Shown piece by piece: positions 38,211 to 41,249 of a stretch of DNA of 64,000 nucleotides. The DNA lies in the NCBI RefSeq assembly GCF_020509005.1, contig NC_063019.1, forward strand, positions 3,658,001 through 3,722,000, written 5' to 3'. Source of the stretch: Fulvia fulva (Eukaryota; Ascomycota; Dothideomycetes; Mycosphaerellales; Mycosphaerellaceae). The notes below the pieces were generated by a model that was given only the letters and a program-made list of their open reading frames with translations, did no database searches and had not been told where the DNA came from. A program made the translations under genes and the position numbers. Position 1 is the first letter of the stretch; the number at the start of each line of letters is the position of its first letter.

Positions 38211-38215
38211 AGCTC

Positions 38216-38267
38216 GTAAGTTTTTTCCACCCCAACCACCACATTTCCACCGCTAACATCGTCGCAG
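38216..38267 (+). other. Intron 1 of U2 snRNA (52 nt)
   Basis: GTAAGT donor, GCTAAC branch site, CAG acceptor. Confidence 0.8.
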
Positions 38268-38271
38268 TCTT

Positions 38272-38328
38272 GTGAGTTTTCACCCTCGCCCTCCCTGCTG
38301 GAGGAGACCACTTGCTGACTCTCTCCAG
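38272..38328 (+). other. Intron 2 of U2 snRNA (57 nt)
   Basis: GTGAGT donor, GCTGAC branch site, CAG acceptor. It is preceded by the 4-nt exon TCTT. Confidence 0.8.
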
Positions 38329-38348
38329 TGCCTTTTGGCTTAGATCAA

Positions 38349-38401
38349 GTCAGTACAACCACTCGACTTCATACACCAGCAACCCCGACTGACACTCGCA
38401 G
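38349..38401 (+). other. Intron 3 of U2 snRNA (53 nt)
   Basis: GTCAGT donor, GACTGAC branch site, CAG acceptor. Removing it joins GATCAA to GTGTAGTATC exactly. Confidence 0.9.
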
Positions 38402-38555
38402 GTGTAGTATCTGTTCTTTTCAGTTTAATCTCTGAAACGAGTCTACGGACTCATTCAAGATTCTTCTCATTTTTGGGACTCGTTGCCAGGCCGCTCAGCT
38501 TGCCGATGCTTGGTGACGCTGTGTCGCTGATATCGCACTGCCTTCAGCCGACGCG

Positions 38556-39160
38556 AACACTTTTTCATCAGGCGCATTGGCTGCACGCTGTGCTCTGGAG
38601 AAGAGATGTCATCACCTCGCACAAGCGATGGTACCTGACAGAAGAACCTGCTGCTGTTTCACGAATCATGCACGCTACCATCCCTGTCCCTTCAACGTGC
38701 AGACTTTGTCGGTGGTGCTCCAGGGCAGCAACTTCATGGTGCCACCTTCAGTTCACACACCACACTTCGTCCCACTGGACGCTCGCAAGAACGCACCACA
38801 TTTCGGCCTGCAACTGCGGTCACCACCTTGGCACTTGCTGCCGCAATGGGAGATCACCGTGACAAGCGTAAGCAACGACCTTGATCCCTGACTGAACCCT
38901 CGTCGACAGCCCATGTATGGAATGAGCATGAAATTGGATTTGTCGCACATGCTTGGACGGCAGTCAAGTCCACCCGGGCGCGCCGGAAGAAGCACAAGGT
39001 GCCTGCCGGTGCTGTGATAATCACATCGGTGTTATACGCGGGCATCCATAAGAGCTGTCCCAGAGTCCAAATACTTCAAATGTCACCATCTTCGTTCGCC
39101 AGACCCTCATAACGACACGAGAGCTGCCACTCCTTACAGCCTCGGAGACCGACCGACATC
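38556..39160. other. Intergenic region, U2 to GH47
   Basis: About 600 bases between the U2 3' end and the mannosidase start. Overlapping open frames (38,473-38,891) cover U2 itself and are not genes. Confidence 0.45.
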
Positions 39161-41249
39161 ATGCGTACATCAGGCCTATCTCTGGCTGTAGCATTCGGCC
39201 TGCAAGCAGTAACGATATCTGCTCAAGACGACCTCAAGACGAACACCAACGGTCTCGCGTACCCTAAGCAGCGAGGCTTGGATTACGACTACACCAGCTT
39301 TCCGCAAGATCAGCAAGAGCGAGCAGATGCCGTGATAGAGCAGTTCAGGTTCGCTTGGGATGGATACTACCAATACGCCTACCCACACGACAGCCTCCAT
39401 CCGAAGGACAACACCTACCGCGATGACCGCAATGGATGGGGCTTGACGATGGTGGACGGGCTGGACACGGCTATCATCATGGAGCAGCAAGATATCGTGG
39501 ACATTATACTCAACGTAGGTGGAGCAAGCATGTCTAACGACTGATGATGCACGCTCACCGCGCCTCTCACAGTTCATTCCTACTATTGACTTTACCAAGA
39601 CCAACGCCGAACTGAACGAAGTCTTTCCTGCTGCGACACCGTTGTACACCAGCGTGTTCGAGACGACCATTCGATACCTTGGTGGCCTCTTGGGGGCCTA
39701 CGATCTGCTGACGGGGCCTTTCAAACACATGGTGAAGGATGACAGCCAAGTCGATGCACTTCTATCACAAGCCGTCTCTCTTGCAGACACGCTGAAGTTC
39801 GCCTTCGACACGGCAAGTGGCCTTCCTATCAATAATGTCTTTGTCGACAACCAGACTTTCACGAACTATGATGTCGGCGAGGATGGCATCCAGTATACAG
39901 GCCTTGCAGTTCTCGGCACTCTTGTCTTGGAGTGGCAGCACCTTTCTGATCTCACTGGCGATCCAACGTACGGCGCACTTGCTCAAAAGGCAGAATCGTA
40001 CTGGTTTGAAGCAGATGAGGTTTGGCCCGGTCTCACGGGAGGCCTTTTCAGCGTTGCTAATGGCTCAGTTATGGACGACTATGGTGGCTGGACTTCCGGC
40101 AACGATAGTGCCTATGAGTACCTGATCAAGATGTACGCATACGACCCCGAACGCTACGGCAACTACAGTGAGCGCTGGCAAGCCGCCGCAGACTCTACCA
40201 TCAAGCACCTCATGAGCAGCCCAAATTCTCGTCCAGATCTCACCATGGCAGGCACGTTCGCTGGGAGAACTGTCCAAAACTCCAGCCAACAGCTTGCTTG
40301 CTTCATTGGTGGTAACTTTTTGCTAGGCAGCACCATCTACGACAGAGACGACTACCTCGATGCTGGCCTGAAGTTCAGCGAGTTCTGCGCAAATGGCTAT
40401 AGATACACCCCTTCAGGCATAGGTCCAGTGCTCTATAGCTGGAACGAGACAGTCCTGGCGGGCGCCAACTATATCAATCAGACTGACCAATACGAGCGCG
40501 CCGGCTGGTTCATCGACGAGAACCTAGCCTACGGTGGTGGCCAGACTCCCGAAGCTATCGAGAGCTGGTACTACGCCTATCAGACAACGGGTGACCAATA
40601 CTGGCGCGACGTCGCCTGGGCGTACACAGTCGCGCAGAACCGGACGTCTCGTGTCGGATCTGGCTTCGCCAGTGTCAGGAACATCTACAAGGCCGACGGT
40701 GGAGGTACAGGCAACTACATGGCGAGCTTCATGCTGGCAGAGACTTTGAAATATCAGTTCATGATTCAGAGCCCGAAGGATGGAGAATGGAACGTGCAGC
40801 ATGGAAAGGAAAACAAGAACACCTTCGTGTACAACACCGAGGCGCACCCGTTCAAGGTGGCGACCAAGCGGCCGGTGTAGGTTGATACCGCCAGGGTAGA
40901 CTTACGGAGCACAGAACGGACTTCGTGGTAATGTGCTGATTGTAGTTCTAGTTTGAAAACCTTCCACGTCGACAACAAGGACAAGTCGAAGGTCGAAGCT
41001 GAGGCAGCGGAAGACAAGGGCCATGATGCCGATGAGGAAGAGGAGGAGGAGGAGGAGGATGAGCAAGATCGTGTGTCAGACAGCCCACCGACTCACAGTG
41101 CAATGCAGCCCTTCCAGCCCTCTGGCAGTGGCCTTCTCCTGATACTGGTCTTGTTCTGCTTCACCTTTGCTGTTATGGCGCGACGTCGGTTTGGACGGCC
41201 TTCGGCGGTGGTGATGGCTGAGGATAAGGACGTCTATAAAGACAGCTAG
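39161..41249 (+). CDS. GH47 alpha-1,2-mannosidase with C-terminal membrane segment
   Basis: Exons 39161-39514, 39573-40876 and about 40946-41249; 653 residues. The signal peptide is MRTSGLSLAVAFGLQ. The GH47 barrel shows LTMVDGLDTAIIM, ETTIRYLGGLLGAYDL, WYYAYQTTGDQYW and the closing NTEAHPF motif, whose Thr helps bind calcium. The family trims mannose from N-glycans, in processing or ER-associated degradation. Without the last intron the protein stops 9 residues after NTEAHPF. Splicing at GTAGGT (40877) adds SLKTFHVDNKDK, a very acidic run (EEEEEEEEDEQD) and a hydrophobic helix (GLLLILVLFCFTFAVMARRR). The acceptor could be 40945 or 40951; both keep the frame. Confidence 0.85.

Follow-up and report, generated by a model that had tools for sequence, protein, structure and literature searches.

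The window, i.e., the whole stretch of 64,000 nucleotides of the Fulvia fulva genome that was analysed (C8:3658001-3722000), carries at 38211-38561 on its forward strand a U2 snRNA gene, the 5' part of which is broken up by three GT-AG introns. Reading along this strand, the locus is composed of (i) exon 1, the 5 nt AGCTC predicted to form the mature 5' end of U2 (38211..38215), (ii) intron 1, 52 nt from GTAAGT to CAG with the branch site GCTAAC (38216..38267), (iii) exon 2, the 4 nt TCTT delimited by the assembly test described below (38268..38271), (iv) intron 2, 57 nt from GTGAGT to CAG with the branch site GCTGAC (38272..38328), (v) exon 3, 20 nt comprising stem I and the U2/U6 helix region (38329..38348), (vi) intron 3, 53 nt from GTCAGT to CAG with the branch site ACTGAC (38349..38401), and (vii) exon 4, about 160 nt with stems IIa, IIb, III and IV as given by the Rfam U2 alignment and by pair counts, its 3' end being approximate (38402..38561). 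Exon 4 harbours the branch-recognition sequence GTAGTA at 38404-38409, placed by Rfam, and the Sm site ATTTTTGG (38469..38476), read directly as well as from the Rfam alignment; it is followed by a 3' element of the form TTTTCATC-hairpin-GGAGAAG (38562..38603). A38211 is supported as the start by the heptamer CTTCCGT, which U1 and the U2 copy C3 have in common immediately 5' of their own starts. Removal of the three pieces in silico joins AGCTC, TCTT, TGCCTTTTGGCTTAGATCAA and GTGTAGTATCTG, in that order. The intron coordinates of the preliminary description proved correct on re-reading, and all three introns interrupt the initial 29 nt of mature U2; each has GT-AG ends, the usual length (52-57 nt) and a branch site RCTRAY at the usual distance (9-11 nt from the end), in line with the GT donors, branch sites and CAG acceptors originally noticed.

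When the genomic sequence was scored, the only RNA gene in the window at Rfam gathering scores was this U2 (RF00004; 38358-38562), with 93.6 bits against a cut-off of 46, so that the covariance model recognises the gene even unspliced. The alignment begins within intron 3 and omits model positions 7-26, as expected where the 5' part is split. GUAGUA and the Sm site are present as such, and a contiguous 5' region with stem I arises only after the three removals. The claim that these removals restore the U2 5' region is borne out by the spliced copy C3, identical over 85/85 nt, in which AGCTCTCTT stands uninterrupted. Reading back from exon 3 with at most two GT-AG introns of 45-100 nt, exactly one assembly yields AGCTCTCTT, namely that made by introns 1 and 2 at the coordinates given above; shuffles of the 330 upstream bases reproduced it in 0/2000 cases under each of three rules, one of which demanded no branch site. 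From exon 4 back to exon 3 there is likewise a single route, i.e., intron 3, found in 0/1000 shuffles, and a chance match was rejected as the source of the intron pattern. With a less strict alignment to the Rfam 5' consensus the locus reached 14, or 2 if no intron was allowed, as against maxima of 6 or 7 in sets of 300 shuffles and of 6 over 293 other places in the window; the score of 14 is carried by exon 3 and intron 3 only, so that introns 1 and 2 are untouched by this comparison. Taken together, the identity of the locus as a U2 gene with three introns of spliceosomal type is supported at the level of sequence. Two other ways of dividing the 5' part were considered. A stwintron made of introns 1 and 2 was set aside, TCTT being required for the match to C3. 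A pyrimidine tract with YAG directly precedes exon 1 in all five U2 copies of the genome, and a further upstream intron ending there, though conceivable, was set aside because a similar tract precedes the 5' end of U1.

The search was extended to the genome (67,169,167 bases in 14 contigs). As far as the consulted parts of the sources go, Cladosporium (Fulvia) fulvum Race 5 has 14 chromosomes (PMC10823647, Table 1), with telomeric repeats reported on both chromosome ends (PMC9453070, abstract and results) and a telomere-to-telomere assembly for ten of the 14 (PMC9453070, introduction). Rfam scoring of 46 of 1843 candidates gave five U2 matches above the cut-off, four of them canonical, i.e., C3 (L001, 111.4 bits), C9 (110.2 bits), C6 (L003, 100.4 bits) and the window copy C8, and one diverged and intron-free, C1 (L005:1501-1720, 57.6 bits). 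Intron 3 is present in all four canonical copies, and the site of intron 2 is occupied in C3 and C6, being free in C9 and C1; intron 1 has no counterpart in C3 and C6, where exon 1 runs uninterrupted as AGCTCTCTT and, with one extra C, as AGCTCCTCTT, respectively, and C1 is the copy free at site 3. Besides intron 3, C9 contains a different 5' piece (L002:1378-1431) between AGCTCT and CTTTGCC, with the donor GTAAGA and the branch site GCTGAT; it ends in CG, and so would be damaged, non-canonical or the product of an assembly error. Exon 3 occurs exactly at four places in the genome, the 17-mer GTGTAGTATCTGTTCTT has four exact matches plus one with one mismatch, and TGCCTTTTGGCTTAGATCAAG has four exact matches, the next three places each showing 3 mismatches. 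An intact, expressed U2 elsewhere, together with an absence of spliced reads here, had been named as what would make the window copy a decayed or processed one; the three other canonical copies all turned out to be interrupted, and neither the Rfam search of the assembly nor the two pattern searches found an intron-free canonical U2. An exact 27-base pattern had 0 matches in prokaryote contigs and 0 in viral contigs, which is uninformative on fungi.

U4 is affected as well. Among 41 of 2151 candidates scored, Rfam gave three U4 matches in the genome, two of which are interrupted, namely L024:1444-1720 (C9), with two introns after AATCCC and after CTATCA, and L025:1443-1752 (C1), with three introns after AATCCC, CTATCA and ACAGACC, the last of these sites being cleanly uninterrupted in L024. 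The third match, L026:1501-1680 (C9), is uninterrupted and diverged, with an interrupted Sm site. The donor of the first U4 intron, GTTCGT, was picked by eye, and an alternative GTATC four bases further is possible; after removal of this intron the U4 5' end pairs further with U6, at -35.3 kcal/mol as against -31.7 with the intron letters there. U1, U5 and U6 gave one match each, uninterrupted, that of U1 lying below its cut-off. The single U3 match begins directly after ACTGAC...GCAG, which is consistent with a 5' intron as common in fungal U3. The reading of the locus is thus broadened beyond the preliminary description, U2 being a gene family and U4 being interrupted too.

Altogether, 14 removed pieces of 51-57 nt were analysed, nine from U2 and five from U4. 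All 14 contain RCTRAY, the branch A of which lies 9-12 nt before the end, where 0.9 would be expected from shuffles, and they end in CAG (eleven), TAG (two) or, in C9, TCG (one). Two features count against spliceosomal removal, i.e., the extreme shortness of exons 1 and 2 (5 and 4 nt) and the donor GTCAGT in five of the 14 pieces, off the usual GTRWGT consensus as given in an excerpt of PMC5832005. Next to the U2 gene, a script called two candidate introns, 76 and 58 nt long, in the gene at 39161. This neighbour is presumably glycosidase-like.

Signals around the genes are shared in part. The upstream sequence CACAGGCCAGCA, which looks like a common snRNA promoter element, occurs at -61 of U1 (L023), at -58 of U2-C3 and, with one mismatch, at -67 of U2-C6, the best matches elsewhere having 3 mismatches (U4 L025) or 4 (C8 and C9); lacking it, C8 is perhaps weakly expressed. 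The 3' element was found at 48 places in the genome versus 2 for the reversed pattern, and nine of the 48 follow U1, U2 (C8, C9, C6 and C1), U3 and the three U4 genes. A variant with GAAGAAG stands at U2-C3, and none was seen by eye after U5. The element is still kept by the diverged intron-free copies of U2 (C1) and U4 (L026). As for its 39 other places, an Rfam test of 20 gave no match; the unassigned places are perhaps unannotated genes of snoRNA type.

Comparison of the copies points to selection on the spliced RNA. Once spliced, the first 85 nt of C8, C3 and C9 are the same (85/85 each), with 82/86 identities to C6. Past this region C8 agrees with C3 at 83/113, with C6 at 89/114 and with C9 at 84/115 positions, C3 and C9 agreeing at 106/112. 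In the 200-nt flanks, C8 shares 116-128 identities per 224-239 columns upstream and 113-125 per 230-240 columns downstream with the other copies; since upstream pairs with the diverged C1 reach 114-122 of 227-236, the flanks of C8 show no clear likeness, those of C3, C6 and C9 being closer to one another (133-140 of 220-227 upstream). The introns form a mosaic, in which some at the same site are alike (C6/C3 intron 3, 46/51; C8/C6 intron 2, 46/57; C8/C9 intron 3, 44/60) and C8/C3 intron 3 stands at background (33/62, z 0.3). This mixture hints at past exchange between U2 copies, which by itself would leave unexplained the identical 4- and 20-nt exons beside diverged introns. The identity of the 5' 85 nt next to diverged flanks and several diverged introns indicates that what is selected is the spliced product. 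As regards structure, the pairs formed amount to 42/43 in C8, 43/43 in C3 and in C9, 39/43 in C6 and 30/42 in C1, so that the claim of intact stems holds for C8, which has lost neither structure nor functional sites, i.e., what would mark an snRNA pseudogene. Across the five copies 13 of the 43 pairs show two-sided changes, a number reached by 0/500 shuffles and exceeding the at most 5 of slid structures, and the count of further pair types was equalled by 13/500 shuffles; both counts are biased in favour of the structure, as it was derived from the same alignment.

The window locus is very probably a functional U2 gene, transcribed as a capped RNA polymerase II precursor from which the major spliceosome removes three introns. 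Under this reading, the polymerase would start near 38211 and produce a capped precursor of some 350 nt, the major spliceosome, of which U2 is itself a part, would cut out the three introns of 52-57 nt, and the exons of 5, 4, 20 and about 160 nt would be joined into a normal U2. Intron 2 or intron 3 would probably be out before intron 1, since the 4-nt exon offers scant space for its two neighbours to be dealt with simultaneously, and the 3' hairpin element may help to fix the 3' end of U2. Because all of the four canonical U2 genes found are interrupted, a new U2 snRNP would need a pre-existing U2 snRNP, in other words the cell probably needs U2 to make U2. A wider proposition, to which we lean with less assurance, is that all canonical U2 and probably most U4 derive from interrupted precursors that have to be spliced, U2 thereby forming a self-sustaining loop. 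If true, a ready-made snRNP would have to be inherited, the loop could break down or adjust itself if splicing failed, and the diverged intron-free copies of U2 and U4 might act as starters.

These readings have to be weighed against rivals. The window copy, its introns being real, could be silent or decaying, with C3 and C6 supplying the U2 and this locus contributing little. Its want of the upstream element of U1, U2-C3 and U2-C6 (best match with 4 mismatches), its lowest score among the four canonical copies and its 3' half, the most diverged of the four (83/113 to 89/114), would fit; however, C9 is likewise without the upstream element, the first 85 nt are those of C3 and C9, the 3' element is intact, and the 42/43 pairs are kept with 6 two-sided changes relative to C3. 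A silent copy is unlikely. Far less credible is the idea that the diverged C1 supplies the working U2, the interrupted copies being relics. C1 does lie above the Rfam cut-off, has GTAGTA and the 3' element and forms stem IV fully, but it fails to form 12 of the 42 consensus pairs, its Sm site is interrupted by a C (AUUCUUG), its U2/U6-pairing region differs, and the interrupted copies, though on separate chromosomes, have kept 5' regions that are nearly identical.

A further proposal concerns the origin of the introns only and is compatible with a functional, spliced window gene, namely that they derive from introner-like elements multiplied in Fulvia fulva. Such elements, some 99% identical, are reported from this species in the portion of PMC4457414 consulted, and intron presence varies among the U2 and U4 paralogs; yet the only matches of a 200-nt U2 query were the query and three paralogs of U2, and those of a 261-nt U4 query were the query and two paralogs of U4, rather than the many near-identical genome copies by which introner-like elements are known. 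This origin appears rather doubtful, if a little less so than the silence of the window copy, and old introner elements may have diverged past recognition.

To our knowledge this would be the first case of an ascomycete that must splice every canonical U2 copy found in it, along with two of its three U4 genes; as far as we know, neither introns in U4 nor, for Ascomycota, introns in U2 have been reported, and among the matches listed in the open-licence literature none dealt with such introns of ascomycetes. The genome provides a natural test case for the self-maintenance of a splicing machine and for the lower limit of exon length (5 and 4 nt), and it bears on how introns enter snRNA genes, i.e., through reverse splicing by the spliceosome or through insertion of introner type, the paralogs that have or lack a given intron within a single genome serving as internal controls.

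Among known systems, the U2 gene of Rhodotorula hasegawae, reportedly described by Takahashi et al. in 1993, is said to have one mRNA-type intron downstream of the branch-recognition sequence. This basidiomycete yeast is reported to have introns in U1 and U5 too. In both cases the conserved 5' part of U2 is interrupted by mRNA-type introns, whereas the present one involves an ascomycete, three introns upstream of the branch-recognition sequence and a family of interrupted copies. The intron-bearing fungal U6 genes reportedly treated by Canzler et al. in 2016 likewise combine spliceosomal introns inside a spliceosomal RNA gene with repeated gain, but here U6 is single and uninterrupted, and U2 and U4 are interrupted instead. 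With the introner-like elements of Fulvia fulva, as far as the part of PMC4457414 consulted describes them, the snRNA introns share the species and recent spliceosomal intron gain, unlike them having shown no relatives beyond their own paralogs in the genome queries. According to the sections of PMC5832005 at hand, frequent interruption was known for U3 and U6 only among small structured RNAs, and introns occur in 138/310 surveyed fungal U3 snoRNA genes; these resemble the present case in that their introns are short, of GT-AG type and close to the 5' end of a small RNA, and they involve no self-dependence, since U3 works in ribosome making.
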